Assembly (NCBI GenBank): GCA_903813345.2
Contig: CAIIXF020000009.1
Location: 14,706,347 to 14,770,346, forward strand
Length of the DNA: 64,000 bases
Direction: 5' to 3'
From: Owenia fusiformis
Taxonomy: Eukaryota > Annelida > Polychaeta > Sabellida > Oweniidae
Shown: in pieces, positions 7,252-57,059 of the stretch
Layout: every line of letters begins with the position of its first letter
Position numbering within the stretch: the stretch's first letter is position 1
Program-made: the position numbers and the translations under genes
The notes under the pieces: model-generated
What the model was told of the DNA's origin: nothing
The model's database searches: none
What the model saw: only the letters and a program-made list of their open reading frames with translations

Positions 7252-10200
7252 TCATATGTCATAGTTCCTGAACTTTTTCAGCATTTCACTTGGTTCATCC
7301 CCCACCCAGTGAGCTTTAACCCAGTTCTCTGTAAAGACAAAAAGTAACCATTTTGAATAGAATGCCTGATTTTGAGAAAAAGCTGACAGATTCCCTGCAT
7401 GTTGTATAATTCAAAGCACAATAGGCTATACAAAATATCCATAAGAGTATCAATCAAACAATAATGATTTGAAGTGAAGTATATATATATCTTTTATTGA
7501 CTCAATAACCATGTCATGTAAATGACATATCAGTCACTACAGTGTACAAAAAACTACAAACTACAACTACATACTACAAAACTACTTTACATCAGTTTCA
7601 CATGTCAGGGTATGATATCAGTGTGGTGTATCCATAATACATGTGTTTTAAAAAATGTTTACATAATATTAATCATTTTCCAAATTTTTAAAAGAGTGAT
7701 ATACAAATTTGGCTAAATGTACAGGGTGATCCAGAAGTAACGTCAAAGATGTTGTAATTTCAAAAGTATTCATCAGATCTTCATGAAATTTGGTATACAT
7801 GTACCCACAACATTTCTGAGTTACCATCTCAAAGATTGGAATTCAATCATTTCATTGGTTGAAATTATGGTTGCTATAGTAACCCGATATCGCGTAACCC
7901 GGGGCAAATTACTTAACGTGTAATGCGTAATCTCAAAATATCAACAAGATCTGAAATTGTTATATCCTCAACATTTTATTTCACAACAATATAAATCATA
8001 CTATTGCACAGTTACTAATAATAGTTCATTCTACATAATTGCCACCATTTGCAACACATTTCTCATGTCTGGATACCCATTCCTTGAACACAGAATTAAA
8101 TCCATTAGAACTCATTCCTTGTAGGGCTAGTACTACGGCATTTTTCAATTCCTCACAGGATTGAAAATTATTTCCACTAAGGTTTCTTTTTAGTTCCCCA
8201 TACAAATAAAAGTCACTGGGGGCAAGATCAGGTGAATAAGGGGCATGTTCAAGTTGTTGAAATCCAAGTGTTTGGACTGTGTTGCTGGTCAGGATTGCAG
8301 TGTGCGTAGGGGCATTGTCCCAATGCAAGATAAACTGCTGCAGATGTCCGGGACGCTTTTTCCTCAGGGAACGTTGAAGATCACGCTTCAGAACCTGAAA
8401 AACAAATGTTTAATGGTTGTTAAACCAGTTGTTTCATTGATTGGATTTGGATTTGAATCATGGCCATGGAGTTATAATTATATTGACAGTGAACAACATT
8501 TAAATACTTTAATTTAAAAATAAAATTCACAGTATGATGTATTATTAGAACAAATGATATCTTACCTTTGCAATGTAAACGGCATTAATTCTCTGGCCAA
8601 TGGGAACAAAATGGGTTAACACCATTCCTCTAATGTCAAAGAATGTCACAAACATTTGTTTCTTTTGTGGAATTCCTGGTACTATTTTAGGCTTGGTTGG
8701 TGTTGGGGAGTTGTCATGTTTCCACGATGAACTTTGTTGCGTGGTCTCTGGGATGTAGAATGATAGCAATGATTCGTCACTCGTAATGATCTTGTTAAGA
8801 AAGTCATCTCCATCTCTCCGATATTTTGCAAGAAAGTCCCTTGAAGCCTTAACACGCCGGTCTTTCTGCTCCTGTGTCAAGTCATGCGGGACACATTTAG
8901 CAGACACCTTCTTTAACAGACAGTTCTTTGTCAGTATCCGTTGCACAGTCCCATAGCTCAGATCGTGTTTTTCAGCCAATTCTCTGATAGAAATTTGCCT
9001 ATTGTCCATAACATCAGCTTCAATTGCTTTGATGGTTTGATCATCGAATGACGACACTGGCCTGCCTCCTCGCTGCTTGTCTACCACTTCATCATATCCA
9101 CTGAAATACTTGTTAAACCACCTGTAAATGTTTCTCTCAGCAATGGCAGCTTTACCATATGCCTTCTTTATCTGTCTTATAGTCTCTTTTACACCTTTCC
9201 CCAACTTTACACAGAACTTAATGTTTGTTCTTTGCTCTATTTTACTCTGACTTGGCGCCATCTTGAATTGGGTGGGTTAGTGTCCTTGGTCATGTTAGTA
9301 TTTGTCATGGATGATGGAAGCAATTCAAAGAAATTGAAAGCTTTTTATGAATGCCTATTGTGACATCACAACTATTACATATTTGTTACCATGGCAACAA
9401 ATATAAAAATCATAGAAAACAAACAATGAACATTTTCAAATGTTACTGACTTTTTAAATTAGAGAAATTCACAAAAACGTTATGGTTTCTCTTCAATTTG
9501 CCCCGGGTTACGCGATATCAGGTTACTATAGCAACCATAATTTCAACCAATGAAATGATTGAATTCCAATCTTTGAGATGGTAACTCAGAAATGTTGTGG
9601 GTACATGTATACCAAATTTCATGAAGATCTGATGAATACTTTTGAAATTACAATGTCTTTGACGTTACTTCTGGATCACCCTGTAAGTTAACATAAGAGC
9701 TTTTACTAGACATAATAGTTTCAAACAGTTTATCTGGATCTTTGCACTGTTTCAGATCAGATTCTAAAGTTTCAAACAAAAGTTTTCTGTGTTTTAAGTT
9801 CTTTGTACAGCTTGTGATAAAGTGAAGCTCATCCTCAATTACCCCACATTCACTACACAACCTTTCACTTGTGGGTTTTGGCTTTGGTTTTGAGTACCGC
9901 CCAACTTCTATCTGTAATTTATGTGAACTCATCCTGAGCCTAGTTAATGCATGTCTATACTTTTTATTTTGAATGTTTAAATATAATTCTTTGGTGAAAG
10001 TATTTTTGAATTTTATATAAGTTCTAAGAACAGGAAAAGTAAGAATATCCTGTTTCCATTGAAGTGCATAATTACTTTTTAATTTCTTTGTGATCATTTG
10101 AATAAATATATAATCATCTTCAACATTTTGAGTCAACCAATGAGAGAATAAATCACATTGTTTTAATATGTCAATAACTTTACTGGACCAAGTGCCAGAG

Positions 10201-13200
10201 TAACCTAAACCATTCATTTCAAGGTCATACAAATATGATTTATTGAGCATATTTTCTTCAGGTAATTTCATTAAACGCAGCCAATATTTAATCAGCTTAA
10301 TGTTGAAACGAATTTTTAAAGGATAACGTCCTAGCTCCCCATAAACAGCCGGTGTAGCTGTTGATTTTTTCACACCAAGCAAACATTTAAGGAATGATAA
10401 GTGTATTGCTTCTATAGCTTTTACATGCTTCTTACTATACCATATCTCAGAGGCATACATTAAAATTGGTTCAACCAAGCTATCAAAAAGATGCAGGGCA
10501 ACGGAGATAGGAACATCGTTAAATTTTTTATACTGTTGCTTAATTTTAAAAAGGGCTTTCCTTGCCTGTTCTTGGAGATAACCTATGTGTTTATCAAAAT
10601 TAATGTTATTATTAAATATGCAGCCCAAATATTTATAGTGGTTAACGCCTCAATAATGTTGTCATTAAAAGTGAATTGCACATTGGATTTTGAATTAAAA
10701 ATTATTGATTTCGTCTTTAATGTGTTAACAATAAGGTGATACCTCTTACAGAATTTAAATAAACAATTTAACATTTTTTGCGCTCCATCTTCAGTATTTG
10801 ACAATAAAATTAAATCATCAGCCCAAAGTAAATGGTTTATCTTATCACCGTCAAATTGAAGTCCATACTCCTTCGGTAAATAGTCTGACAAATCATCAAG
10901 AAAGTGGTTAAATAAATAAGTACTAAGAACAGAGCCCTGCATTACACCGGCATCTGTCTCAAAAGTAGGGGTGATACCATCTTTGAGTTTGAGGCAAGCT
11001 TTGGATTTTTTATACATACTGGAAATAATTTTGAAAATATTTGAACTTGGTGATATACCTGCTTTGCATAGTTTATACATTAGTGCAGACCTATTTACAA
11101 AATCAAACGCTTTTTTGAAGTCAATCATAATACAATATACTGGTTTCTTCAATCGTTTATAGTGAGATATAAGAGTGCTTAAGATATATAAATTGTCACT
11201 TGACTGATGTCCAGTTTTATAGGCACCTTGGAGTGGATCTTGGGTGTTCAACATTTCAGCATTGAAAACAAGTCTATTCTGGATGACTGAGTCGAACACA
11301 TTGCCTATACAAGCTAAAACATTTATTCCTCTATAATTATCAGGATCAATTTTACTACCTTGTTTAAAAATAGTTGACAACATGCCTATGCTCCATTCAT
11401 TTGGGTAATCACCACTTAGAAAAATATGATTAAAAAGAGCAGTAATGTATATCAAAGTTTTGGAAAATAAAGGCCCTTTTTGGAGGCCATTTTGGAAATT
11501 CTGGTCTTGATTTACGACACAAAATACAAAAATGACATCAACAAATGAGATAAGGATGAGGTCATTTGCATTGACATTGAGTCATACCTGCATGTTGACT
11601 AGTATTATATTTTGTGCTGTTGCAATGTAAAACATTTGGACTTGTTGCTGGCTGACTTCCTTCATTTGCATTAGTGCTTTCATTAATTTTTCCTCCTTCT
11701 AGCATTGGTTCTTTCTTAGTCTTGTATGCCCAATGCATGGACTGCAAATAAAGGACTCATTATAAAACCAGAACAACAGCAACGCCAAAGCGTAGCGAAT
11801 CCCATCGAACAGAAATGGCTGGCATTTTTACATTTGAAATATATAGCAAATATCATAAAATAACACCCATAAGAAAGGCCACCATTTTCAAAATGGTTGA
11901 TCACTAGCCAAGTTGTCACCAGAAGAAGTAAAATGCTTTTAAGTAGCCACATATAAAATTCTTTAAAAATCCCCAATGCTGGCAATTTTTTAAAATGGCC
12001 GCTTATTACCAAAAATGTCATAAGACAGTATGCAATCCTTACGAGTATTCACATATCAAATATGAACAAAATCGCTCTATTACTTTTTGAGTTATAATAA
12101 AAAATGTAAAATAACATACATAAAGATGGTGGCCATTTTTCAAAATGGCCGACTACTCCCCAACGTTTTATTAGAAAATGTGCCATGCTTAAAGTATTCA
12201 CATATCAAATATGAACAAAATCGCTTCACTACTTTTCTAGTAAAAAACATAAAAATAGTGGCCATTTTTCAAAATGGCCACCTATTACACAAAGCGTCAT
12301 TAAACAGTCTGCCATGCTTATAGTATTCACATATTAAATATGAACAAAATCGCTCTACTACTTTTTGAGTAATAGTAAAAAATGTAAAATAACACATGTA
12401 AAAATGGCAGCCATTTTTCAAAATGGCCGCCTACTACCCAAAATGTCATTAGACATTTTGCCATGCTTAAAGTATTCACATATCAAATATGAATGAAATC
12501 GCTCCACTACTTTTTGACTTACAGTAAAAAATGTTAAATAACACACATAAAAATGTCGGCCATTTTGAAAAATGGCCGCCTACTATCCAAAATGTCATAA
12601 GACATTGTGCCATGCTTAAAATATTCACATACCAAATATGAACAAAATCGCTCCACTACTTTTCAAGTTACAGCAAAAATCGTAAAATGACGTGCAAAGG
12701 CAGCCATTTTTCAAGATGGCTGCCATGTTTTTCTTCTATATTACATTTCTAGCTTAATCAATATTTTATATAACTTTTTTACATTTAAAACATATTGCTA
12801 TTACAGTTTTATATGCCGTACCTAAATAACAGTAAAATCGGCACTAAAATGAACTTCTACCGCCATTGGGTATATGTGTACAAAATATGAACAAAATTGG
12901 GCCAGGGGTATTTGAGTTATTGCCCGGACGGACGGATGTACGTACGTACATCCGTACAGACGGACGGATGGACTGACGGAGGCGTTCCCTATATCCTCCG
13001 AACTTCGTTCGATGGGATAATAATAATCTTGTAAGAATTTGTAATGATTGATACCATATTTGTAATCTCCTATCAAATACTTTCTTTTGGATGGACAGCT
13101 TCTCTATATACTCAGACTTTCCTCAGTTGGATAAGAATTCATATATTTCAAACAATGGGTTATTATTTGTAGAGAAAAGAGCTTACTGTTTTCACTGTTT

Positions 13201-14615
13201 CTTTCATACTAGTGTACTGTTCAAAGGGCATAGCTATTCCACTTCTCTTCCAGTTGTCATAAAGCCTCCTGTTGGCAGGATCCTCCAGAGTTTCCTTGGC
13301 ACGTAGCAGGCGAGAGAACCTCTTAGCTGAGGACACATAAAACAAGATGATAATTGAATTGTAGAGTTGTAGAATTGCATAAACTTAAAACATCAACATC
13401 ATCTAACTAACAATAACAATGATGTTATTGCTCAGCATTAATCGTAATAATATAGGTATGAGACGGAGGACATTGAGCTTATAATACATGTAGGGTTTGA
13501 ATGTATTAAAATAATAATTATTGAATTTTAATTGGTATCATTTATCATGTTTATTTTATATAAAACTGTTCAACTATGGCAAAAGAGAATAAATAACATC
13601 ACATTTTACTTTCAAAAATAAAATGTAAATAAATAAACTTAATATGCCAACGTTTTACTCCAGATAAAATGGCAGTTAGGTTATATGCTATAAATTAGAC
13701 CGAACTAAACTCATGGGAGGGGAATATGCCTAGCGAATATGCTTTTTATGTTGGTATGGCATCTTACACCAGTCATGTGACAGACACTGACCAATCAGAG
13801 AGTGAGGTTCTAGGAATATGTCAGTGAAATAGATATGTAATGCAGATATATTTATACAACATGTACAAACCTGCATCTGGGTCATTGGGATTTTTATCTG
13901 GGTGACAGTCTAGAACCCGGGTCTTGTATTCTGTCTTGATCTGCTCCACCTAAGTAAGAAATATAACATTTAGATTTCCAGAAAGATATGATGCTTATGT
14001 TGGTGCAAACGAAGAATGAGATAATGAAGATTCAACCTTTATTTCCAGGCAATCTGGAAAAAAAAATTGTTCTCACAATATCAAACTGGATGTTGTAACG
14101 TTTTGTTACGATCTGTCTTTGTAACACACTTGTAAGTTCTCTACAGTGCCACATCCATTCCCATATAACAGGTTTCCCAGCTAAGCGAATGATTGAAATT
14201 GAATTTCTAATAAAAATATGTTATGAAGGAAGCATCAAATTTAAAATACAGCCAAGGACATAGCCAGGATCTAAAATATAACAAGGCAAAAATTCGAGAT
14301 AAAAGCAAATTACTCTACCATATGACTTCATTTTCAAAGTTTCAATTGAAAATGTTAAGCTATTGTCATCCCTATCGTGTCATTTTCACAAGATTGAAAT
14401 TGTCAACTGAAAAATCAAAACATTATGTGTAAAAGGATTTAACCACAGGGCTCAATGAATTGTGGATGATTTAAAGCAAGTACAAGTATGTCTTGTATCA
14501 AGACTTTGAATGAGAGCGGTAGCTTGAAAAAACTTACTGATGATAACTCATCACATCCTAAGATATGGTAATAGTCATCTGCATCCTCCCTTTTGTAGTT
14601 AATGATCGTATCCAT
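7252..14615 (-). CDS. DNAJC12: DNAJC12, J-domain co-chaperone (five exons)
   Basis: Exons in transcript order: 14615-14538, 13949-13871, 13326-13187, 11741-11588 and 7328-7252. They join in phase to 175 aa (human protein 198 aa). Exon 1 reads MDTIINYKRED, then DDYYHILGCDELSS. Exon 2 carries the J-domain HPD (residues DCHPDKNPNDP). Exon 3 holds RAKETLEDPANRRLYDNW and AMPFEQY. Exon 4 starts SMHWAYKTKKEPMLE. Exon 5 encodes the conserved tail ending KKFRNYDI and stop, close to human KFRNYEI. All introns are GT-AG. Human DNAJC12 is a cytosolic HSP70 co-chaperone for aromatic amino acid hydroxylases; the same role here is inferred. Intron 4 (about 4.3 kb) is swollen by a LINE with a nested mariner, and intron 3 by a tandem-cored repeat. 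It is divergent from SIRT1. Confidence 0.93.
7722..9683 (-). mobile_element. Full-length mariner-type DNA transposon
   Basis: The 1962-bp element is flanked by TA on both sides (7720-7721, 9684-9685). The ends are CAGGGTGATCCAGAAGTAAC and its complement. Inverted repeats of roughly 190 bp (7722-7910 and 9495-9683) match almost base for base, including the GTAACCCGATATCGCGTAAC stretch. Long arms like this are unusual for mariner, whose inverted repeats are usually a few tens of bp. The near-identity of arms and the open transposase frame point to a recent insertion. It lies inside a LINE, inside DNAJC12 intron 4. Confidence 0.92.
8026..9261 (-). CDS. mariner transposase, DD34D, with a 171-bp intron
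   Basis: Exon 1 is 9261-8566 (232 codons) and exon 2 is 8394-8026 (122 codons plus stop). Together they give 354 aa, the usual mariner length. The gap 8395-8565 starts GTAAGATATC and ends TTTTTCAG, and splicing it keeps phase 0. Without splicing, the frame stops just after the donor. The N-terminal half has helix-turn-helix regions, a GRP motif (residues about 66-68) and VPHDLT. The catalytic aspartates are D162 (TSDES), D258 (HWDNAPTHT) and D293 (SPDLAPSDF), with 34 residues between the last two. No stop or frameshift is seen. The transposase may be functional; that needs testing. Confidence 0.88.
9684..11475 (-). pseudogene. LINE reverse transcriptase ORF with frameshift
   Basis: Frame one (down to about 10640) encodes reverse transcriptase: YRGINVLACIGNVFDS, IDFKKAFDFVN, GVMQGSVLS and the catalytic box LLWADDLILLS. 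Near 10640 a one-base frame change is needed to continue into YKYLGCIFNNNINFDKH and the post-RT region. That region ends with a Cys-Cys-His-Cys motif (LCSECGVIEDELHFITSC). The copy is 5'-truncated, frameshifted and interrupted, so it is dead. The C-terminal zinc motif argues against RTE; I do not assign a clade. Confidence 0.85.
11770..13024. repeat. Tandem-cored interspersed element (Helentron/pearl-like?)
   Basis: Lies in DNAJC12 intron 3. One end has GCAACGCCAAAGCGTAGCG, the other CGAACTTCGTTCGATGGGAT. The core is at least five copies of a ~148-bp monomer (phrase CATATCAAATATGAACAAAA at about 12052, 12200, 12330, 12479 and 12627). Each monomer holds a self-complementary GGCCATTTTTCAAAATGGCC. 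Next to the second end is an ACGG/TACG microsatellite (about 12925-12975). A second copy in reverse orientation is at 29216-30180. Tandem core plus microsatellite plus fixed ends resembles non-autonomous Helentron (DINE/pearl) elements; this is inference. Confidence 0.7.
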
Positions 14616-14925
14616 TGCTGTGTATGTTCTTTTAAAACACTTTGATATGAATTAGATCTAAATGCACCTTGGTCCAGTCAGTATGACTTGGGCTTGGCTA
14701 TTCTAACTTTTCGTGTTTCTCAGTTGACTCATGGATGAGCCGGGCGCACAGGCATATAGGCCTATCCGCCTCTGATTATAATTACAGACTGTTTAGCACA
14801 CTGAGCTACAGCAGCCGCTATCACAAACATGTACTACGAACAGATAAATTCCTGGTTATTGTAACACCCTTGGTTGAATGTGCCTTGGTGGCTAAATAAC
14901 AGGACTATCATCTATTTTACTAAAG

Positions 14926-15465
14926 TCACTGCTACCCACCTAGTTACACAGACGTATCGTCAGTGTATCATGGCTGAACTACTTCTGGGATTTGAATTTG
15001 GTAAGATATTTTTATTTCTCGATTTACATCTACTTATAAGTCACGATGTGGATTATAATTTGGCTCGAAGTTATGGGAGATAGTCTAGTTTGAGAATGTG
15101 TCGATGGTTTTAGGTTTGGTATGTTAAAGAAGACGCATTTCACATATTTTGTTTCGCTTTTGTTACACTGACGATCGGCATTAATATTGCCAATATTACA
15201 CTGATATTGGTCGTTCGTCAGTGTAACAAAAGCGAGGGACTAAATACGTGAATTGTGTCTTCGTTAACATATAAAACCTAAAACCATCGACACATTCTCA
15301 AACAAGACTATCTTCCTTAACTTCGTGCCAAATTATTATCCACAACATGACTTATAAGTAGGTGTAAATCGGGAAATAAAAAAATCTTACCGAAACCTAG
15401 TCCCGGAAGTAGTTCCGCCATAATACACTGACGATACGTCTGTGTAACTAGGTGGGTAGCAGTGA
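14926..15465. mobile_element. 540-bp foldback MITE between DNAJC12 and SIRT1
   Basis: The two halves are nearly perfect inverted copies meeting at about 15195. The left end is TCACTGCTACCCACCTAGTT and the right end is its complement. Further matches run through GACGTATCGTCAGTGTA, TCTACTTATAAGTCA and AACCATCGACACATTCTCA. The flanks share AAG on both sides, a possible 3-bp target duplication. It has no transposase. The small ORFs inside are incidental. It sits in the divergent spacer, about 300 bp above the DNAJC12 start and 600 bp above the SIRT1 start. Confidence 0.88.
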
Positions 15466-15784
15466 AAGTGCTCACAATAAATAAATGACACCTGGATTTT
15501 CTATCACCATTTCATATTCCAGACCATGATGATTTGAGACTTCATACTTTCCAAATAGTCTACAGATCAGTTTCTCACACTGATTGTGTGTAAAGAAACC
15601 CAAATGAACTTTTACCCTGCTGTGTGCAATACTTATCTATTTCTTTTTCTTCTGATGTTATATTTCTTATGATAAATTAGATATTTATCTATTAGACTAT
15701 TATATCATTTCATCAGTTCATAATTTCATACTACATCAACTTAAGATCTGCGCCAGGTTTGCTTATTCTGCTTCGAGTTTTTAG

Positions 15785-16032
15785 TGCGCATGCGCAAAAA
15801 TGACCGACAGAATTGCCCTACATATTCGGGTGTATTACACTATTATAAAGACTTTTTCTATTCCCAATCGTTATTTAGGATACCCATAGGGCATAATGTA
15901 AAATTTCTTTACCGTATAGTTTCGTAATAGCTTAAATTTGAACAGTAGGTGCGCATGCGTACTTAAGATAAACCAAAGGAAGAAAGAAAACCTGGCGGAG
16001 ATGATCACTAGTTGACGTCATTGTGCGCCAAA
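15785..16032. promoter_or_regulatory. Probable SIRT1 (possibly shared) promoter motifs
   Basis: TGCGCATGCGCA at 15785-15796 is a perfect NRF1-type site. TGCGCATGCGTA at 15950-15961 is one base off. TGACGTCA at 16013-16020 is a perfect CRE. GCGCCAAA at 16025-16032 is an E2F-type site on the minus strand. This is the most CpG-bearing part of the spacer and ends 27 bp before the SIRT1 start codon. NRF1 and E2F sites are common in housekeeping promoters, and mammalian SIRT1 has been reported as a CREB and E2F1 target. Function here is inferred from motifs only. Confidence 0.6.
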
Positions 16033-16035
16033 TAG

Positions 16036-16074
16036 ATGCGCAGTTGAATGCTAAAACAATGGCGGAAGTTGTAG
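16036..16074 (+). promoter_or_regulatory. Two short upstream ORFs at the SIRT1 start
   Basis: ATG at 16036 opens a three-codon ORF (stop 16045-16047). ATG at 16048 opens an eight-codon ORF ending 16072-16074, which overlaps the SIRT1 ATG (16059) in another frame. The SIRT1 ATG has the better context (ACAATGG). These matter only if transcription starts upstream of 16036, which is unknown. Confidence 0.5.
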
Positions 16075-19000
16075 ATCTCAAAAGTACTGCTTCAAAGCGT
16101 CCTAGGACCGACAGTAGACGTCAGAGTAGCTTGGATGAGGGTTATGAAGAAGGATTCGATGTTACCACACACGCCAATGCAGCAAAACGACGTAAAGAGA
16201 CAGATCCGACAAGTATAAAAGGTACAAACCAGTTTTTTATTCACTTTTTTGTACTTTTTTCAACTCACTGACAAAATAAAAGGAAAATTTTCCTTGGCCT
16301 TGCCGTTAGGTGACTTTAGATTTACTTTAAGCTTAAAGGATGGTGACTTTGGTCAAATGCCACTAAGGTTCATCTGCATATTAAGAATTTTGCTGCTTCC
16401 TTCCCTAGTAGATCTATGTATCCAACAGACTGACTGGAAGTCAGTCTGTTATGATGTACTACTTTCCTGTGGAAATTGCAGTGAATTTTTTTGCACAAAA
16501 TTATCAATTGGAGGAAACATTTTTTCAATAAAATAAGCATTACAAAATTTCAATTAAATAGTAAGGTACAATTAAATGCAATAAAAAGTAACACAGCATA
16601 TTGTCTAGTGGAAATAAAGCTAGATGAAGTAAAACTGTGCAAATTAATTTTACCCAATCGGCCATTTTGAATAGCACTTCCTATGTAAACAAATATTTGA
16701 AATTACCAAACTTTAACATAGGTGCCTTATAGTCTGAATATAATTCAGACTAAATAGGATATAGTCTACTTCCTTCCCCAAATGGACGAGACCCTATCTG
16801 TTGCAAGACTAACGCCTGGCGTAACCGTCACTATGTTATTCAGTGTTTTTTAAGTAGCGCAAGGTAGTGTTGTCGCGATTAATCGATACATCGCGATATA
16901 CATCGCCAAAGCTGATTCTGGCGATGCATCGATGTCTGAAACAAAACATCGATGTTTTAAAAAAAAATTAATTTGCTAAATATCACCCTTTCTTATCTTA
17001 TTTTGACGCAAATCGCTTACCTTTGTCATGTCTTATTTCATTTTCCAATGTTTTCTGATATTCTTTCGCTTTAAAACTGTTTTAGCTAGTCGAAATGAAC
17101 CATTAATCTAAAAAAATTCACTTTACTTTCATTTCATCGTTACTAGAAGTTCCCGGATGTACCAGCATACTTTTATTAATTTGTTCTGTTCAGTATTTTA
17201 GCGCAATAGCGTTCGGTATTTCAGTGCACTTTTCTCGGACTTTTTCTCGATGTACATCGCGATGTGCATCGATGTTTACTACTGAAAATTGCCGATGCAT
17301 CGATGTACGATTATGGCACATCGCGACAACACTAGCGCAAGGATCCTGCCATGACCGTAGTAATGTTATCGTGAAAGCCTGGTATAACCGCGACAATGCT
17401 GTATTATATTGTAATGCCTGCCATAACCGTGACAATGTAATATAGTTCTGCAAGGCTTGGTATGACCGTGACAATGTAATATAGTACTGCAAGGCCTGGC
17501 ATGACCGTGACAATGTAATATAGTATTGCAAGTTCAGGTATGAGAGTGGTAATGTAGAAATTTACGATTAGGACTGCTATAACCGTGACAATGTGTATTC
17601 CAAAGCCTGGCATGACTGTGGGAATGTAATATAGTTCTGCAAGGCCTGGCATGACCGTGACAATGTAATATAGTATTGCAAGTTCAGGTATGAGAGTGGT
17701 AATGTAGAAATTTACGATTGGGACTGCTATAACCGTGACAATGTGTATTGCAAAGCCTGGCATGACCGTGACAATGTACTATAGTATTGCAAGGCCAGGT
17801 ATGAGGGTGGTAATGTAGAAATTTAGGCTTAGTCCTACTATGACCGTAATAATGTATTGCAATGACTAGTAAATACTGTACATGACATTAATGCCAGGAA
17901 TATCCTTAACAATTTTAAGTGATTGTCATTACAATTCAACAGTTTAATACTATGATCATGGTGTTTAACTACCTTAATCATGTGAAAATCAAAATTACTA
18001 CTATACATAATATTCACATTCGCTTATAAACCACAATAAAGGCTACGGTCACGCCAGGCTTCCACGATAACACTTCCAGGGCCATGACAGGCCTTGCAAT
18101 ATAATACAGCATTGTCACGGTTATACCAGCCTGTCACGGTTATACCAGGCTTACACGATAACACTACCACGGTCATGGCAGGATCCTTGCGCTACTTAAA
18201 AACACTGATTAACATGGCGACGGTTGTGGCAGTAGTAGTCTTGCAATAGATAGCATGTGAAATGGACACGAGTAAATCCTCTACGGCATATGGTATATTA
18301 TTGATGTTTGACCAATCAGATTTCAGCATTTGGTTCAGCCCTTGTCAGAGAAATATTTTGTGATTGGTCAAACATACCATTCACCTTCCCCAAATGGAGA
18401 CCCTATCTGTTGCAAGACTTATGCCTGGCACAACTGTCACCATGTTATTAAGTGTTTTTATGTTTCGCAAGGATCCTGCCATGACTTTGGTAGTGTTTTC
18501 GTGATAGCCTGATATAACCGTGACAATGCTATATTGCATGGCCCAGTACTGTCAACCCCCAAAGATTTTCTCGCGGGACAGATTTTTTAGACCCAGTGCC
18601 AAAACTTCGCGGGATTTTGCGGGACATCCGCCTAAATTCGCGGGATTTTGCGGGACATTTAAGGAATTTGCGTGATTGCGCTAATAGGTCGAATTTCGAT
18701 CAAATTCGCAGGATTTCGCGGGACCATTTGAGGGACAAACACGCTAATTGCGGGACAGTTAACAGGGTAACCACCAAAGACTTCATAGAGGGGCAATCTT
18801 TTTAGACAAAGTGTCCTAAATTTGCAGGATTGGCGAAACATCCACCTAAATTTGCGGGATGTCGCAGGACATTCAAGGGATTTGCCTGATTGGGGCTTAA
18901 TGTAAAAGTACTCAAATCAAACTTTCAGATACTGATTTATCAAATATAATGAACTTAACTTAAGTAAACGTCAACACAATTCCACACAATACGCATAGAA

Positions 19001-22000
19001 ATATTATTAAAGGGTGACGGTTGTGCCAGGCGACGGTTGTGCCAGGCATAAGTTTTGCAATAGATAGCATGTGCCTATCTGTTGTGATTGGTCTTCAAAG
19101 TCAGAGAATATACGTTTTATAGTCATATAATACAGGGTGACTGGAAACAAGAGACCATTGACTGGCTAGCAGTGTTGCTATCTATTTTCTCATGGAGATA
19201 AAATCACAATTATAAAACTTGGTTAAGATATAACTCAACCATTGAGGTTATAATTTGTGCCCTTTACTTGTCCTTAATGGTCACCCAAATGCCTAAATTG
19301 ATGGAAATTCTGATCTCAAATGTCTGTCAAATTATCTGCAAATCAAGTATAATTTCAACAATGAGTAGATGGTTGTGACTTATACAGATTCATGATTTAT
19401 TTTGTTTTTTGGGGATTTGCTACCATGTGGAGTTATTTACTAGTGTCCCAACTTATTCTTCTTTTCTTGAATGGTAATTATGAAAACTAATTACAAAAGG
19501 TTTCAAGGTGAATGTTTATGGAAACATTTTTGAAAAATTGCTTTTTAGGTAATAATACCGAGGTTGACGAATCAGACTTAGAAGTTGATCAACAATATGG
19601 CAGTTCTGTTGCAGAACAAGAACATACACTTGTTCCAAAGGCTGGTCATAGCACAGAGGCAAATAACACTATACTAAGCTCAACTGAACAACAGGCAAAT
19701 ATTGAAAAAGACAAAGGTGAGCTCAGTTTACCAGATATCAAGTTTTATTTCTTATGGTTTTCCAGTTCTGTGCCTTTCAAAAGGATATGAACATTTAACA
19801 TTTTATTGATTGCTTTGAAGAAATGCTCAAGAAACTTCCCAGTGGTGACTTTTTTAATTCCTCTGTGTTCTGAATTTTTACACTAAATACTACTAATATC
19901 CTACTAATTTTCATCATAAAATGTCCAAATTAAGACTTTAAGATTTGTTTAAATAAAAAATATGTTTTGTTTGGTGAGATTTTCTAGCTTATGAAACTTT
20001 TCTAGTTTTAATATTTTCATAATCTTATAATTTCTCTAGATGCAGAATTGCTGTTATTTAGCCACCAGGGAGAAGATTCGGATGATGATAGTAGCTCAGA
20101 CAGTGATAGCAATAGTCTATCAGGTGGCAGTGAGGCAGGATGGCGGCCTATTGCTGGTAAACTAAATACTATTTATTATAAGACCAGCTCATGGCAAATT
20201 CAGTTGTTTACTCAGAGATGAGTATTCTCAATATGGCATGTATGTTTGACTTATTATCTTTATGATCTATAAACACTATGTTTGTGTGTAGGCCCTATGG
20301 CATGGGTAGAGCGTCAGATGATGAAAGGTGAAGATCCAAGAGGTGTTCTAGAGAGTATTCTACCAGATGGTCAGTCTTCACAGATCCCCAGTGACATTGA
20401 TGACATCACACTTTGGAAGATTATCATAAACATTGTATCAGAGCCACCCATGAGACCCAAGTTGAAGGACTACAATACATTTGATGATGCTGTGAATCTC
20501 ATCAGGAATTCTAAGAAGATTGTTGTCCTCACTGGAGCTGGGGTAATGATCTATAGCATATTACTTTTTCTGACCAAACTTAAGAAATCTTGCTTTGAAT
20601 TACATTAAAATGTATAGGATATTAAGATGATTTACCAGTTGGGATGTCTGCAAGTTTTATTTAGTAGATTTAATTTCTGAATCACCCTCTGTGATATGTG
20701 GCTGTGTGGGCCGCTGAACGAGGATGGGAGAGTTGTAGCCTTGGTACATTTTTGTACATGAACATTTTTATTTAGAATATTCCACTTATTAATATGCTTG
20801 TAACATCTTTTGATTTTATCAACTTAGGTATCAGTTTCATGTGGAATCCCTGACTTCCGTTCAAGAGATGGCATATATGCACGGCTAGCAATAGAATACC
20901 CAGATTTGCCAGACCCACAGGCCATGTTTGACATAAAATACTTCCTGCATAATCAGAAACCATTCTTCAAGTTTGCCAAGGTAATACTCTTCTGAATGTC
21001 CCTCTAGGACAGCGGAACATCTGTTGATTCCATGTGGTAGTGTGTATAAGTGAATCTTGAATACAGAGTGGTCCAAAAAATGTGAACTTTTTGATTTTAC
21101 GCAGAACTTTTATTTCTCCTAAATTACATCAAAATTTTAATGAGCATAATTCAATTACAAATGACTTACGAAAGTGTAAAAAAAAGATCCATTTGCAACT
21201 TTATGAATTCATAACTTTTTAGATATTTACAAATTGTGAACATTCATTACTACGAATGGTACAAAAATGGACTCCTGGTTCTCATGATTTGATCTGCTTT
21301 CAATTACTCAGATGCGAGTAGGTATTTACCAGTTACGCCACCAGGTGGCTGATTCGGGGGAAATAACATGGTAGGGTATTACAAAGTTCCCTTAAACTTG
21401 AATATTCATCAGTTTTAGTGGTTCAATTTTCATATTACCCATATGTATGTGATAGTTATATAAATTAAAATATGTCCAGTAAAACAAAATATTATCTGCC
21501 AAACACAAGAAAAGATATTTCACTTTTTATGGTTTACAACATGGGGTCTATGGGGAATCTACCCGACCTAGAAGTCACATTTTCAAAGAAAATTAAATTT
21601 TCAAAGTTGATAAACTCTTTTCAAAACCACATTTTTAGATGTATATTTACATGTAGATTCCAAATATGACATCAGATTGACTGAATTGTGAATTTTTAAT
21701 GACATAAATCAAGATTACTTCTACTCGCGTCTGGGACATTGTTCTGTGTTCTAATGAATCGATACTTTGTGTTAATTTATGTGTTCCTTTTGTACAGGAA
21801 ATTTACCCTGGGCAGTTTGAGCCATCGTTGAGCCACAAGTTCATTAAGCAGATAGAGAATCATGGCAAGCTGTTGCGTAACTACACTCAGAATATTGACA
21901 CTCTGGAGCAGGTTGCTGGCATTTCTAATGTTGTACAGTGTCATGGTATGTGATTTGCTGCAAAGTGTGCCTGGGCAAAGTTCAAATTAAACTAAAATCA

Positions 22001-25000
22001 TATTCTTGTGCCTCAAAATTTCAGTTGCACCAGAATATGGGCTCAATGTTTTTAGCTCACTTGTTGAGTCATTGCAGTGACACACTTAGTGTCTGTTTTT
22101 CAATAACAGTGGCATTTTTCATCTCTTGATACGATTCAAGTTTTTGTATTTAATTAATCATTGATAAGATAAAGTTCCCAATGACTCCAGATTCAAAAAT
22201 ATTTCATTGTCTTTTTATTTGAATGAAATATTTCATTCATTGAATCATATTCTTGTTTTTGGGATATGGTACTCGGTAGAGTTGATTTTCGAGTTAGTAA
22301 TAAATCAAATATGTGCATATCTTTACAATGTTTTTCTTATACTTTCTTTGATTAGGTTCATTTGCCATGGCAACCTGTATGAACTGCAAGTACAAAGTGA
22401 ATGCTGAAGCAATCAAAGAAGATATTATGAATCAAGTAAGGCTCTCAATGAAATTGCTTTTATATTTACATATTGAACTTGTTTGAGGAGATATGATTAA
22501 GATTGAAAAGTGCTAGTACAGGGGGGGGGCAAAAATGCCTCCATTGATTATTTGAATAATACTTAGCCCTTATAGTAAAAGCAAGTTGTTTATACCATAG
22601 TAAAAAGATATATGACATACTATTCTCCAAGATTGTTTCATTTGAACTATGGTCATGTGAACCTTTATGGCATAGGAGTCACTTTTCAGTTTCTAAGATC
22701 AACGATTTTGAATATATTTATTATGAACTAATGTTCATATCCATTTTATGGTTCATTCTGGTTTACTTTATTTTGGATCGATCAGCTTTTTGGCAACAAA
22801 ATATCACTTTTTTAAGATCACTTTTTTGTATTTTGTGTGTAACGTCTTGTCTACACATTACAGTCATACTGTTTGATAAGATTGATTATGAATTTTTAGG
22901 GATACTTTTTGGAGTATAAACCATCCCATGCTCAATAAATTTTAAGGTGGCCATTTTGTATTTTCTGTCCTAAAACTTTGTATGTAAATCATGTGTGTCT
23001 ATGTAATGTAGTGTGTCTATGTATAATGTATGTTCAGCCCTTCTTGAAATTCTATTCTATTGAATATTGTTCACCATGTGTCTTGCTAATCATTTGAAAA
23101 ACAGGACATTTGCATCCAATGAGTTGTACTGAGATCACTCCGATGCTCTGTTGTCCCACGTACTACTGGTATGTTGTAATTTCCATAGGCCACACTTCAG
23201 TAGGCATTCAGTTCATCAACACTGTACACTATAGTAAGAAAAACAATTGATTCATTGCAGGTGATTCCCAGATGTCCTGAATGTCCAGCTGATACTGAAC
23301 TTAATATTATGAAACCTGACATTGTCTTCTTTGGGGAAAGTCTACCTGAGGAGTTCCACAGGCAGATGGAGCTGGACAAGGAAGAGTGTGATCTCCTAAT
23401 TGTTGTTGGCTCCTCACTCAAGGTTCGCCCTGTGGCTCTTATACCAAGTAAGTTATCATATTATGTCATCATGTTTTATCTAGTGAAGATGACACTCATA
23501 CATCTTTACAAAAACAGCTCGTGAGCTGATTTGTTCATATTGATGATTCAGTGATTCTCGCAAATATTGATGTTTAGATTGATAGTCCTGATCGTCACAA
23601 TCGTAACGATCGTGAGCTGAATTGTTGTGCTGATTCAGCTTGAATACATGAATCAGAGCGATTGTGTGATTAAGTGATTCTGCAACTGAATTATGTGCAC
23701 ATCACTATTGAACAATCGTCACTATTGTGCTGATTCAACTAAAATGAATGATTGAAAATGTATGAACAATTCAGCTCACAATTGTGATGATCATGACTAT
23801 CAATTTAAACATCATTATTTGTGAGAATCACTGAATCATCAAAATGAACGATTCAGCTCACGATATAAAAGAAATAAAAATCACTGAATCAAAATGTACG
23901 ATTCAGACAGGGCTCGATCCTTGGACCTATTCTGTTTCTTATTTACATCAATGACATTGTTACGACATCTTGTATATTTAAATTTGTTATTATCTTTGCT
24001 GATGATACAAACCTTCTCTGCTCACATAAAAACCTAAGTACTCTCATGAATCATGTCAACTCTGAATTAGAAAATCTTGACGAATGGCTATGTGCAAATA
24101 AACTATCGCTTAATATAGAAAAATCAAAATTCATGATCTTTCATCCACACAAATTAAAAGAATCTGAAATAAAAATGCTAAATATTAAAATAAGAAATAA
24201 ACCTATTGAAAGAATTTCAAAGACTGCTTTCCTTGGAGTTATTATTGATGATAAACTTAAATGGAATGAGCATTTTGCTCATGTATCTACCAAAATTTCA
24301 CAAGTAGTAGGAATTCTTTTCAAGGTCAAAAATAAGATAAATCACACTGCAATGATGTCTATTTATTACTCTCTTATATATAGCCATATAAATTATTGTA
24401 TTCTTATCTGGGGAACAGCAACTAAAGCTATATTGTTTCAAATTCTGAAAGTACAAAAAAGATTCTTAAGACTAATTACAAACAGTGTTAGAACAGACGA
24501 TTCCTCTCCACAATTTAAGAAAATAAAAATACTTAAATTAGAAGATATTCATAAGCTAAATGTCGGTATTTTTGTATATAATTGTCTCAAACGACCCAAA
24601 GAATTTCCTCAAACTTTATTTTCTGACTACTTCATATCAAATGCTCAAACTCATGGTCAAGAGACACGTTATAGATTCAATCTTAGAGCTAATCAATTTA
24701 AATCTACATTTGGACAAAGGAGCATTAAATACCTAGGACAAACAACATGGAATGAAACTTTTAAACATCTGAATTCTAGAAATAAATTTAAGTCAGATTT
24801 GAAAAAGTATTATCTGGACAAGTATTAAATTAATCTGTATAACATTTAGCTATATGTGCTTTTATTTATGTATATTTCTTTCTCTTCTATCACTTTTCTT
24901 CTAACTTTCTATCTTAAAAAACAGTTTTATATCTTGTCATCTTGATTAATACAATTATGTAATATAATCATATGTAACTACATGTATATACACCCGCATG

Positions 25001-28000
25001 GGTGTCAGTTGCCTGTACATTGAAAATCGATATAATTGACAAATAAACAACTATGCAAACTGTAGATCACAATTGCTACGATCATTAGAATCGTAAATTC
25101 AAGAATGAATCCAGTAATCTCCCTAGGAATTTTTCTCAGGTGGGTGCAAAATATTTTTGTGCAAATATTTTTTGCTCGCAGTAGTAAAATCTTGAAAATT
25201 TTCGCTGCCTGCGAGGTTTAAAACTTAAATATTTATGCCGCTCATTTCACTAATGATACTTTTTTCTTCATAATATTCTCCTCCCAATGTACTCACTTCA
25301 AACCACCTTTTTTATGTCCCCACCACATAGTGTGGGGCCATATTGTCGTCCTAGGCGCGTCCGTCTGTTTGTCTGTCTGTCTGTCCGTCCGTCCGTACGT
25401 CTGGCAGTTTTCTCCAAAACCGCTACAGATATCACCTTCAAATTTTCAGGAATAACTTGTGAGTGCATACAGATGTGGATGTAAAAATCCTTGTCTGCAA
25501 ACTTTAAGAAAAACGGCTTCACAGTTGCTTTTAAAACTTTAACATCTTGTTCAGCTCACCTCATTCTACATCTGATCAGGTTTTGGACCTGTTAGCTCAG
25601 TCATGTCAGCCATTTTGAATGTCTTAAGAAAAGTTAGTGCGTGATAATACTTTGTATCATATTGAATGGTGTTTTTGAGTTTTCATACTTTAACTATTTA
25701 ATAGGTTTATAAATAATTTCAGGTGTACTTTGTTGTAAAAGCCTATGTTATTGTTAGTTATTTGTGATAATTTTGTAAAAGGAAATCAGCAAAACTCATA
25801 ATCACTTTTTTATTGTCGGCCATTTTGTTTTTTTCTGTCATAAAATCTTGTCTGTAAAGTCTTGTCTACGCGTTTTCAGGTGAACTGTTTGGTAGATCAA
25901 TTTCAAATTTTCAGGGATGATTCTTAGTATGCAAATCTAGATTTGATTAGTTTTTTGGCATTCTGGGTAAGTGTCAAGGCAGCCATTTTGGATTTTCTGT
26001 CTTAAAATCTTGTCTGTAAAGTCTTGTCTACGCATTTCCAGGTGAACCGTTTGGTAGATCGATTTCAAAATTTCAGGGATGATTCTTTGTATAAAAATCT
26101 AGATCTGATTAGGTTTTTGGCATTCTGGATAAATCTCAAGGCAGCCATTTTGGATTTTCCATCTTAAAATCTTGCCTGTAAAGTCGTGTCTACGCGTTTT
26201 TGGGTGAACCGTTTGGTAGATCAATTTCAAATTTTCAGAGATGATTCTAAGTATGGAAATCTAAATTTGGATTTTCCGTCTTAAAATCTTGCCTGTAAAG
26301 TCTTGTCTACGCGTTTTCAGGTGAACCATTTGGTAGATCAATTTCAAATTTTCAGAGATGATTCTAAGTATGAAAATCTAAATTTGGATTTTCCGTCTTA
26401 AAATCTTGCCTGTAAAGTCTTGTCTACGCGTTTTCAGGTGAACCATTTGGTAGATCAATTTCAAATTTTCAGGGATGGTTCTTAGTATGAAAATCTATTG
26501 CCAAATTAAGTAGCGCCAATTTAAAGACAAATACAGTATTGAGCTTAAATGCTTAACTTGCAGACTAGCTTGTAAGGTGACACCAAAGACTTTAATATAT
26601 AATAAAAAAATAACCTTTGATTTCAGATTCCATCCCAGCCTCTGTACCTCAGATCCTCATCAACAGGGAGCCTCTCACACACTTGCACTTTGACATTGAG
26701 CTGCTTGGAGATGGTGACGTCATCATAAATGAACTAGCACAACATCTGGGGAACTCCTGGGTAGTTGACCCCTCATGTCCACCGCTCACAGAGATTACAA
26801 AAGGCAATTTGTTAACTCCACCTTTGTCATGTGACTCAAACTCCTACCCAGGGAACAGCAATGACAATAGCTGCAGTATATTTCCCTCTACCTCAAATGA
26901 TGCAATAACAAACAGAACTGAAAGTGCAGATCTCAATGAAAATACTGTTAACTTGAATCAGCAGAGCCCTACCTCAGCAATTACTTCATCTCATTGTGTT
27001 TCTATAATTACACCAGCGATAGAGTCAACTGAAGCTAATCATGTGGACAATACCAAGTCTCACCTCACAAAAGCCTCTACTGAACAAATAGAAACATTTT
27101 TGAAAGACTCAAAAACTGAAAGCAATCTTCCCGAAGAAAATACTTCACAAACTGATCAAATTACTGAAAAGGATCACTCAGTAACTGAAAATAGTGAACT
27201 TAAATCTGAAAGTTGCTCTAGTTTGGAGGGCATAGTTAAAACTGGCTCATTAGATAAGCAACTCATTACTGGCTGTGGTCCATCAGGCTTGGGGCCATCT
27301 GAGCCAGGGTATTCATCAATATTGGCAGGAGACACTTTTGTTTCAAAAGGTCCCAGATCATCTGAAGTTATAATTGAGTGTGACCAGTCGTCATCTAATG
27401 TGGCAGATTCTTCAGAAAGTACAGAACAAGATAACAGCAATAAACCAGAGGTAAAGGATGCATTAATGTTACCAACAGATAAACCAGCGGTAGAAGATGC
27501 ATCAGTGTTACCAATAGATAAACCAGAGGTAGCAGAAGATGCATCAATGTTACCAACAGATAAACCAGAGGTAGCAGGAGATGCATCAATGTTACCAACA
27601 GATAAACCAGAGGTAGCAGGAGATGCATCAATGTTACCAACAGACAAACCAGAGGTAGCAGGAGATGCATCAATGTTACCAACAGACAAACCAGAGGTAG
27701 CAGGAGATGCATCAATGTTACCAACAGACAAACCAGAGGTAGCAGGAGATGCATCAATGTTGCCAACAGACAAACCAGAGGTAGCAGGAGATGCATCAAT
27801 GTTACCAACAGACAAACCAGAGGTAGCAGGAGATGCATCAATGTTACCAGTAGATAAACTAGAGGTAGCAGGAGATGCATCAGTGTTACCAATAGATAAA
27901 CCAGAGGTAGCAGGAGATGCATCAATGTTACCAACAGACAAACCAGAGGTAGCAGGAGATGCATCAATGTTACCAATAGATAAACCAGAGATAGCAGGAG

Positions 28001-28978
28001 ACACGGGCACCTCAGTGATTGTTGAAAACACTCAAATGATGTCAAAAGACACCCCAGCATTGTCTCAGGATACACCTGGACATTCCAAAGAAGAGTTGGA
28101 ACTATTGAAAACTTTCTGGCAACCTAAACGCTGGAATCTAGCTAATATGTTAGCAGGTGAGTTAAATAGCCAAGTCTTCATTAATGTACAGTGTTTCTAA
28201 AAAATAATTCAAGGTACATGAAGCAGTCAGATTTACAGTACTTGTTTGCATTTACTTTTTTCTATAGAACACAACTCGGAATAGGTCTACTGAGTAATTT
28301 CTGCACTTTAAAATCTCATTTCCATGTTTAACATAGCCTATTTAATGTTGTTGTAGCTATTACACTCGATCTTACATTCATGCTCCACGTTCTCATTCTT
28401 TTATATCCATACACACATATCATTCATACTTGATAAATACATTCATGCCGCAATTTCCTCATAAACATGAATGAAATGCAGTATGAGAGAAAGGGAAATT
28501 CACAAGAAGATGATGATAATATAAATAAGTGGAGCCATATGTCAGGCAAAATCCTAAGATGAAATATTAATATACAATGGAGAACTTAATTTCTGTTCAA
28601 CTTTCAGATGGTCAGTATCTATTCCTGCCTCCAAATCGCTACATCTTCAAAGGTGCCGAGGTCTATGAATCTGACAATGATGATGATGACCCCAGTTACC
28701 ATGGTAACAATCAAGCAGAATCTCCTGATGATCTCTCTGATTTGGAACCAGAATTGACAATGCTGCCAAATCTACATCAGGATACAAAAACTGCCGATAT
28801 TATTTGCCATAGCAACACGCGTCAGGACAATGACATTGTGAATGTTGATATTCCAGCATCTGAATGTCCTGTTGAAATTGGAGAAATTACTGGTTCTCAA
28901 CATCTTCCTATAAAAAGTGATTCCCTCAAAAATACATCTGGTACCACCATAAAAACAGACTGTTGCCATGACAGCTGA
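16059..28978 (+). CDS. SIRT1: SIRT1, NAD-dependent protein deacetylase (ten exons)
   Basis: Exons: 16059-16221, 19549-19716, 20040-20156, 20292-20542, 20828-20980, 21798-21945, 22356-22435, 23261-23447, 26627-28156 and 28608-28978. They join in phase to 1055 aa (human 747). Basic NLS-like clusters KRPR and AKRRKE lie in exon 1. The helical pre-core (exon 4) matches human around TLWKIIINIVSEPP. The Rossmann/NAD motif GAGVSVSCGIPDFRS spans exons 4-5, with TQNIDTLEQ in exon 6. The catalytic His is H333. Zinc cysteines C341, C344, C365 and C368 have human spacing. VGSSLKVRPVALIP ends exon 8. The C-terminal ESA-like segment QYLFLPPNRYIF is in exon 10. SIRT1 deacetylates nuclear proteins using NAD. 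The extra length is mostly exon 9, which carries a 42-bp tandem repeat. Introns hold foldbacks, MITEs and a LINE. Exon 2 rests on phase and splice signals rather than strong homology. Confidence 0.94.
16793..18260. mobile_element. Large foldback element with tandem-repeat arms (copy 1)
   Basis: The termini are CTATCTGTTGCAAGACT (left) and AGTCTTGCAATAGATAG (right), followed inward by an inverted TTTAAGTAGCGCAAGGATCC. The arms contain ~40-bp tandem units (ACCGTGACAATGTAATATAG, then TGCAAGGCCTGGCATG) and a longer ~149-bp repeat (two copies from about 17524). The centre (about 17880-18045) is unique AT-rich DNA. No transposase is seen. It lies in SIRT1 intron 1. A full copy in reverse orientation is at 61489-62625, with shorter copies at 18384-19070 and 60207-60608. 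Confidence 0.82.
16865..17334. mobile_element. hAT-like MITE nested in the foldback element
   Basis: 470 bp with inverted ends TAGTGTTGTCGCGAT and ATCGCGACAACACTA. It is flanked by the 8-bp direct repeat GCGCAAGG (16857-16864 and 17335-17342). The related foldback copy at 61560-61567 has a single GCGCAAGG and no insert, giving a natural empty site. An 8-bp duplication and these ends fit the hAT superfamily. Near both ends are repeated CATCGATGT palindromes. No ORF of note. Confidence 0.88.
18384..19070. mobile_element. Short foldback copy (copy 2) carrying a GC-rich insert
   Basis: Left arm about 18393-18545 (CTATCTGTTGCAAGACT onward) and right end about 19015-19068 (GACGGTTGTGCCAGGC, then GCAATAGATAG) belong to the same family as 16793-18260. 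Between them (about 18548-18890) is a stretch of repeated phrases such as CGCGGGATTTTGCGGGACAT, unlike the surrounding AT-rich DNA. It looks like a separate insertion. No coding frame. Confidence 0.6.
21640..21780. repeat. Dispersed repeat in SIRT1 intron 5
   Basis: Matches the first ~120 bases of the window (TAGATTCCAAATATGACA onward) in the same orientation. It ends about 20 bp before the exon 6 acceptor. Confidence 0.55.
23519..23864. mobile_element. Foldback MITE in SIRT1 intron 8
   Basis: The left arm (GTGAGCTGATTTGTTCAT onward) and right arm (ending CGATTCAGCTCAC) are inverted copies over about 90 bp, including TGATTCAGTGATTCTC / GAGAATCACTGAATCA. The middle has further imperfect dyads. 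No ORF. Confidence 0.75.
23907..25060 (+). pseudogene. LINE fragment, reverse transcriptase C-terminal half
   Basis: The open frame runs from about 23907 to the stop at 24828. It begins inside the RT domain (QGSILGPILFLIYINDI) and has the catalytic box FADDTNLL, then WLCANKLSLNIEKSKFM and the post-RT region (LGVIIDDKLKWNEH; SLIYSHINYCILIWG). A 3' UTR with AATAAA follows to about 25060. The 5' two-thirds is missing. It looks CR1/L2- or Jockey-like from the thumb motif, and is a different lineage from the LINE at 9.7-11.5 kb. It sits in SIRT1 intron 8 in the sense orientation. Confidence 0.83.
25313..26500. repeat. Tandem-cored repeat in SIRT1 intron 8
   Basis: Begins with CACCACATAGTGTGGGGCCA and a GTCT/GTCC microsatellite (about 25365-25400). 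Several degenerate monomers follow, marked by AAGTCTTGTCTACGCG and GGTAGATCAATTTCAAATTT, with GGCAGCCATTTTGGATTTTC in some. Related monomers occur at about 22660-22990 in intron 7. The layout parallels 11770-13024, but the monomer is different. Confidence 0.65.
27433..28000 (+). repeat. In-frame 42-bp minisatellite in SIRT1 exon 9
   Basis: About 13 tandem copies (the first interval 39 bp, later ones 42 bp) encode DKPEVAGDASMLPT with small variants. Copies in the middle are almost identical, while the first two and last few are diverged. The unit is acidic and proline-bearing and is predicted to be disordered. It lies between the catalytic core and the ESA-like segment. The multiple-of-three unit also keeps minus-strand frames open, but those are shadows. 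Confidence 0.93.
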
Positions 28979-30567: not shown

Positions 30568-30673
30568 GTGGAAAAGCCAGTCGGTCCTGTAGCTCAGTGG
30601 TAGAGCACTTGCCCGGAAAGCGAGGGGTGTTGGGTTCGATCCCCACTGGGGTGGACTGACTTTTTCACATCAG
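30568..30673 (+). ncRNA. tRNA-like sequence with extended outer stem (SINE or tRNA pseudogene)
   Basis: The core at 30583-30656 has a good A box (TAGCTCAGTGG), a near-perfect B box (GGTTCGATCCC), a paired D arm (GCTC/GAGC) and a paired anticodon arm (CTTGC/GCGAG) with loop CCGGAAA. Position 33 is C instead of U, the acceptor stem pairs poorly, and one T-stem pair is lost, so it is unlikely to be a working tRNA. GATGTGGAAAAGCCAGTC before it and GACTGACTTTTTCACATC after it are near-complementary. The right arm contains TTTTT, a pol III stop. Confidence 0.55.
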
Positions 30674-37755: not shown

Positions 37756-56977
<19,222 letters not shown>

Positions 56978-57059
56978 TGTTGGATATTTCTATATCAATA
57001 TCATATCCCCTATGAGAGTACAGATGCAGGCTGGCTCCATAGAATAGAGGGAGGGGCTG

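Follow-up and report, generated by a model that had tools for sequence, protein, structure and literature searches.

The protein-coding genes DNAJC12 and SIRT1 lie back to back in the annelid Owenia fusiformis, and we consider it fairly probable that this divergent pair was inherited from the common ancestor with vertebrates and has been retained passively through its compact 5′–5′ interval. The pair is located at 14.71–14.74 Mb of contig C9, within the 64 000-nucleotide stretch analysed here (the window; C9 14706347–14770346). DNAJC12 is on the minus and SIRT1 on the plus strand, with 1444 bp from one start codon to the other (16059−14615). The initial annotation of the window had described both genes as complete, with this orientation and spacing, and our spliced models bear this out: in both, all internal exon boundaries are GT–AG and the frames are open (Table 1).

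The DNAJC12 model runs from 14615 to 7252 and comprises five coding exons (528 nt of coding sequence including the stop codon, 175 aa). Its closest solved structure is human DNAJC12 (2ctq, E=1.5e-34; runner-up DNAJC5, 8.8e-13), and in the J-domain part 54 of 100 residues are identical to the human protein. The model contains the DnaJ domain (PF00226, E=1.4e-19) with the HPD tripeptide at residue 42. This was its sole Pfam match at E values up to 0.01, as expected of a type III J protein. The heptapeptide KFRNYEI is the DNAJC12 signature; it lies within the last eight residues, the deletion of which nearly abolished binding of tyrosine hydroxylase, as described in PMC11926245. The annelid model ends with KFRNYDI, which is identical at six of the seven positions and has one conservative E to D change. 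J domain with HPD, C-terminal heptapeptide and single-domain make-up thus assign the predicted protein to the DNAJC12 (JDP) family. In a genome search the model returned eight matches, five of them its own exons and three J-domain stretches on C1, C8 and C7 (35–47% identity); the genome has one DNAJC12 locus. Intron 4 of DNAJC12 also holds an element at 7720–9685 with 191-bp terminal inverted repeats that are 98% complementary and TA at both sides. We take it to be Mariner-like from the resemblance of its open frame. It is followed at 9648–11581 by frames that by eye look like reverse transcriptase.

The SIRT1 model is likewise complete (ATG at 16059, stop at 28978, 10 coding exons, 1055 aa). 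Human SIRT1 is the closest solved structure (5btr, E=5e-163), and the first chain other than SIRT1 is yeast SIR2 (2e-69); SIRT3 reaches 8.2e-61 and SIRT2 1.5e-57. The catalytic core (PF02146, E=9.4e-65) is 73% identical to human SIRT1 over 289 columns. For the structure match the repeat-bearing part of exon 9 was omitted from the query; the 5btr alignment spans query residues 130–494 and includes the N-terminal domain, the core and the C-terminal activating stretch QYLFLPPNRYIF.GAEVY; the PPNRYIF.GAEVY stretch of SIRT1 is retained. These three parts place the predicted protein in the SIRT1 family. A SIR2-family search of the genome gave 16 matches, three in the SIRT1 gene and 13 elsewhere that may be of any sirtuin type, a second SIRT1 included. 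Exon 9 contains a 42-bp in-frame tandem repeat of 13.5 copies (27440–28001; 14 aa, PTDKPEVAGDASML-like; 94% matches). It follows the catalytic core and precedes the C-terminal activating stretch, and its length may vary between individuals. In intron 8 we noted by eye a reverse-transcriptase-like open frame of 316 aa (23878–24828).

A published gene list of a human 10q21.3 deletion contains CTNNA3, DNAJC12, SIRT1, HERC4, MYPN, ATOH7, PBLD, HNRNPH3, RUFY2, DNA2, SLC25A16, TET1, CCAR1, SNORD98, STOX1 and DDX50 (PMC3909616). A list for cattle chromosome 28 names LRRTM3, DNAJC12 and SIRT1 and continues to TET1 in the human order (PMC7764440). DNAJC12 and SIRT1 are therefore neighbours in two distant branches of the Bilateria, as seen in this genome and in the human and cattle lists. 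Of the initial claim that the human pair is adjacent on 10q21.3 in the same divergent order, the adjacency is confirmed by these lists; the divergent orientation is presumed for human. We also take the human starts, and with them the promoters, to be ~46 kb apart, whereas the distance here is 1.4 kb. The flanks differ as well: CTNNA3 and HERC4 are listed for human, whereas the nearest recognised genes here are one with Methyltransf_FA domains and one of PDZ/formin type.

We rate the pair as a further case of an already known class, the ancient divergent gene pair. A literature search over the listed titles and the beginnings of abstracts, with supplementary tables, in which such pairs would appear, outside its scope, did not find the DNAJC12–SIRT1 pair as a subject. 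In passages of two related papers, one on catfish HSP40 genes did not mention sirt1 and one on scallop sirtuins gave no information on neighbouring genes. SIRT1 was also sought in bacterial, archaeal and viral contigs as a sign of stray animal DNA, and no animal locus was found there; one bacterial sirtuin (24% identity) was dropped from the animal survey.

To place the pair in its wider surroundings, seven human neighbours were tested by Pfam family in the genome (498.26 Mb in 525 contigs, of which C9, with 38.88 Mb, makes up 7.8%). Positions listed by 12 genome searches extended into the multi-megabase range on C1–C12 and stayed below 0.27 Mb on higher-numbered contigs, which suggests twelve chromosomes. 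The published assembly of the species is described as 505.8 Mb with 12 chromosome-scale scaffolds and 26,966 genes (PMC9977687), and 12 chromosomes are also given in PMC9539403. Three of the seven neighbours were found on C9. CCAR1, recognised by its DBC1 domain, is at 13.96 Mb, 0.75 Mb from SIRT1, and TET is at 12.25 Mb. RCC1 repeats (6.712–6.717 Mb) and a HECT domain (6.667–6.673 Mb) lie on the same strand and in the right order for the HERC3/4 type; they are ~40 kb apart and are presumed to form one gene. Their reading frames resemble human HERC4, and the two other loci with RCC1 and HECT matches together fit HERC1 (C10) and HERC2 (C2) by the number of RCC1 blocks. The binomial probability of three in seven on C9 is 0.013 under uniform placement, without correction for the choice of genes. 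For two of seven within 2.5 Mb of the pair it is 0.002, at a distance picked after the positions were known. The pair thus appears to be part of a conserved chromosomal block, with its other members found here 0.75–8 Mb away.

Common ancestry of the pair is inferred because independent re-adjacency would be improbable. With ~2,100 genes on C9, a number derived from the gene count of the published annelid assembly (mean spacing 18 kb), the chance that two given genes are adjacent and divergent is ~2.4e-4. Although picked out post hoc, the pair stood out among few genes of the window, so that chance re-adjacency is unlikely.

The interval between the two starts contains an inverted-repeat (foldback) transposon. 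Without it and one copy of its target-site duplication, 900 bp of native sequence remain. The element is present in high copy number, with 1,087 candidate places listed in a genome scan. Among the best 40 of these that were scored, the 39 besides the interval copy were 96–98% identical to it over the element; this range describes the best copies, and older ones may exist. Two other copies that were read (L002 and L003; 527 of 540 columns identical) are, like it, flanked by 5-bp duplications. The insertion between DNAJC12 and SIRT1 is probably recent. The element is 538–540 bp long with ends CACTGCTACCC, and it also lies at C11:10507462 and C1:45102467.

The promoter-like marks of the native sequence lie one-sidedly, at SIRT1. 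They include the palindrome TGCGCATGCGCA and a second GCGCATGCG, both of NRF1 type, and the CRE-type palindrome TGACGTCA; all of these lie no more than 275 bp from the SIRT1 ATG. The window has GCGCATGCG, the core of the NRF1 consensus, at just two places (0.04 matches expected), at 15785–15796 as the palindrome and at 15951. TGACGTCA occurred three times in the window (0.41 expected), once at 16013. ATGGCGGAAG, which overlaps the SIRT1 start codon and resembles YY1/ETS promoter motifs, was found once in the window. The CpG observed/expected ratio was 1.19 at 15700–16099, the 96th percentile of 400-bp windows over 124 kb. On the DNAJC12 side (14616–14926) it was 0.46 (64th percentile), and none of the scanned motifs was present in that stretch. 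A ratio of 1.8 at 16800–16999, within SIRT1 intron 1, counts against a simple reading. We regard the SIRT1-side marks as a putative working promoter.

Table 1. Coordinates of the DNAJC12–SIRT1 pair, of the interval between the starts and of neighbouring genes (window numbering)
Feature	Position	Strand	Basis or remark
Interval between start codons	14616..16058		1443 bp
Inverted-repeat (foldback) transposon	14927..15464		538 bp; 5-bp target-site duplication AAAGT
Palindrome TGCGCATGCGCA, NRF1-type	15785..15796		motif scan
Second GCGCATGCG, NRF1-type core	15951..15959	+	motif scan
TGACGTCA, CRE-type palindrome	16013..16020		motif scan
ATGGCGGAAG on SIRT1 start codon	16059..16068	+	motif scan
SIRT1 coding exon 1	16059..16221	+	gene model
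SIRT1 coding exon 2	19549..19716	+	gene model
SIRT1 coding exon 3	20040..20156	+	gene model
SIRT1 coding exon 4	20292..20542	+	N-terminal domain, first part of SIR2 core; gene model, structure match
SIRT1 coding exon 5	20828..20980	+	gene model, structure match
SIRT1 coding exon 6	21798..21945	+	gene model, structure match
SIRT1 coding exon 7	22356..22435	+	gene model, structure match
SIRT1 coding exon 8	23261..23447	+	gene model, structure match
SIRT1 coding exon 9	26627..28156	+	holds 42-bp in-frame repeat array 27440-28001
SIRT1 coding exon 10	28608..28978	+	C-terminal stretch PPNRYIFKGAEVY; gene model, structure match
DNAJC12 coding exon 1	14538..14615	-	ATG 14615-14613
DNAJC12 coding exon 2	13871..13949	-	J domain with HPD; gene model, structure match, Pfam
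DNAJC12 coding exon 3	13187..13326	-	J domain end and linker start; gene model, structure match
DNAJC12 coding exon 4	11588..11741	-	linker; gene model, genome match
DNAJC12 coding exon 5	7252..7328	-	stop at 7252; C-terminus KFRNYDI
Two Methyltransf_FA domains	1.7-3.3 kb, upstream		Pfam
FH2 match	44838-45152	-	29.5 bits, below Pfam curated cut-off 34.8
PDZ domain	56567-56989	-	Pfam
Ankyrin + patatin-like (PLA2G6-like) gene	~73-88 kb, 9-24 kb past window		by eye
Beta-lactamase-like gene	~19-21 kb before window		by eye

We propose that an ancestral block held DNAJC12, SIRT1, HERC3/4, TET and CCAR1. The latter three would have dispersed across 8 Mb of C9, with DNAJC12 and SIRT1 remaining back to back. 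Passive retention of the pair is inferred because the short 5′–5′ interval offers few harmless break points. With ~0.9 kb of native sequence, nearly any break would sever 5′ control sequence of one or the other gene, and broken arrangements would rarely be retained. The control region most at risk would be the SIRT1 promoter with its NRF1-like, CRE-like and CpG-rich sequence. Compactness would thus be the holding force. In vertebrates the two genes would have been drawn apart yet stayed adjacent, a course that can be framed by a study of amphioxus. There, 25% of neighbouring protein-coding genes are in bidirectional promoters (mouse 12.8%, zebrafish 7.8%), and the majority of 372 putatively ancestral bidirectional promoters were lost in vertebrates, as stated in PMC6292497. 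The annelid pair resembles these invertebrate divergent pairs with close starts; it differs in that its spacing is measured between start codons.

Several findings weigh against this interpretation. Of the seven human neighbours tested, four map to other chromosomes (DNA2 on C12, KIFBP on C8, the VPS26 family on C6/C10 and the vinculin/alpha-catenin family on C5/C6/C7), and the recognised genes beside the pair differ from the human ones. A 538-bp transposon is tolerated inside the interval. This transposon is CpG-rich (observed/expected ~1.5 at 15000–15399) and holds ETS- and YY1-like matches, so that it may itself act as a promoter for DNAJC12 or SIRT1. The native 900 bp may not all be promoter. 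Moreover, the comparison covers two lineages, one of them via papers. The initial annotation had also suggested an ancestral linkage. Adjacency in both lineages and the three neighbours on the same chromosome support this, and ancestry of the pair is likely, although two lineages fall short of proof.

The gene order might instead have been kept by inertia, the pair being a chance survivor of slow decay under no constraint. We regard this as possible but clearly less probable than retention through a compact interval. O. fusiformis is reported to retain ancestral linkage groups (PMC9977687), and the pair was chosen after the fact. Local order is otherwise shuffled, however, because the other block members are 0.75–8 Mb away and the recognised neighbours are not those of human.

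The initial annotation further proposed that shared regulation holds the pair together, linking a chaperone of aromatic amino-acid hydroxylases to an NAD-dependent deacetylase. Both would be needed together and would share a bidirectional promoter or enhancer. The starts are indeed divergent and separated by 900 bp of native sequence, the interval contains palindromic, orientation-free motifs, and the pair was kept while HERC3/4, TET and CCAR1 dispersed. In a bidirectional promoter the transcription starts are commonly less than ~1 kb apart and share one open region; here the distance between the two ATGs is 1443 bp, or 900 bp without the transposon, as measured between start codons rather than transcription starts. 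However, the native marks are on the SIRT1 side and the transposon parts the two halves. In addition, the 124-kb region has one further GCGCATGCG, at 72434; it precedes the first frame of the PLA2G6-like gene by ~400 bp, which suggests that this motif is a general promoter mark of the genome. The presumed ~46 kb between the human promoters also argues against joint control. A simple HSF-type pattern (GAANNTTC / TTCNNGAA) had no match in 14400–16300, and heat-shock co-regulation was left without support at this crude pattern level. Nothing in the DNA demands joint control of the two genes, and proximity is what speaks for it; selected co-regulation is thus not supported and in our view unlikely.

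Drosophila provides a comparison on this point. Its Sir2 gene partially overlaps dnaJ-H, which is transcribed in the opposite direction (PMC3808700). As in the annelid, a SIRT1-type gene faces a divergent J-protein gene. Unlike in the annelid, the partner is not DNAJC12: the table in PMC5597180 lists dnaJ-H against human DNAJA2 and Jdp against DNAJC12, and the fly locus is therefore not an instance of the DNAJC12–SIRT1 pair. One fly study cited in PMC3808700 found dnaJ-H mRNA up 2-fold upon >12-fold induction of Sir2 from its native locus, which would fit co-regulation. By the account in PMC3808700, however, dnaJ-H was not raised at 2.5- to 5-fold Sir2 in other studies or at 3.5-fold in that of its authors, and strong expression of unlinked Sir2 transgenes or of GFP raised it as a stress response. 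That a J-protein gene faces Sir2 in the fly too is a curious coincidence.

Separate joining of the two genes in this lineage and in vertebrates has in its favour the restriction of the comparison to two lineages and the fly arrangement, where dnaJ-H, and not the DNAJC12 orthologue Jdp, overlaps Sir2 divergently (PMC3808700, PMC5597180). We consider it improbable in view of the low chance of adjacency in the right orientation (~2.4e-4 on a chromosome of ~2,100 genes) and of the three of seven other human neighbours that share C9. We give still less credence to the idea that a divergent J-protein (HSP40) promoter partner has been kept beside SIRT1, or gained by it more than once, DNAJC12 here and in vertebrates and DNAJA2 (dnaJ-H) in flies; if true, a pairing of sirtuin and chaperone promoters would be favoured, e.g. 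with a deacetylase and an Hsp70 co-chaperone answering energy or proteotoxic stress together.

The genes flanking the pair were recognised from frames above a score cut, and the Pfam scan comprised eight window frames and the two models. HERC4 and CTNNA3 were considered as direct neighbours and were absent among the genes recognised in the flanks. The PDZ domain and the FH2 match, 11 kb apart, suggest one delphilin-like gene, joined by us on the assumption that delphilin is organized in this way. The PLA2G6-like label was given by eye. CCAR1, at 0.75 Mb from SIRT1 in this genome, also appears in the human 10q21.3 gene list; its vertebrate paralogue CCAR2/DBC1 is described as an inhibitor of SIRT1 (PMC4287135). 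Elsewhere, the small contig C346 carries at 257980–263274 tandem RCC1-like partial repeats ~113 bp apart, which may be an array artefact or an RCC1 gene that has expanded. At C5:17864040–17904173 many exons of the vinculin family are present in two copies with identical scores at a distance of 24 kb; either the assembly has duplicated them or a tandem duplication took place very recently. Rfam gave a single match reaching the gathering score across the window, a tRNA-like one (30583–30654; 37 bits).

An ancestral origin of the pair would imply that the sequence upstream of human SIRT1 was long ago already the upstream region of DNAJC12 and SIRT1 alike. The depression-associated variant rs12415800 presumably lies between DNAJC12 and SIRT1. 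It has been assigned to SIRT1 as an intergenic variant near that gene, and variants linked to it span DNAJC12, as noted in the depression paper (PMC6901563). DNAJC12 merits equal attention as a target at this variant because it stabilizes tyrosine hydroxylase, the dopamine-making enzyme (PMC11926245). More generally, DNAJC12–SIRT1 offers a simple case for telling passive from selected retention of gene neighbours.

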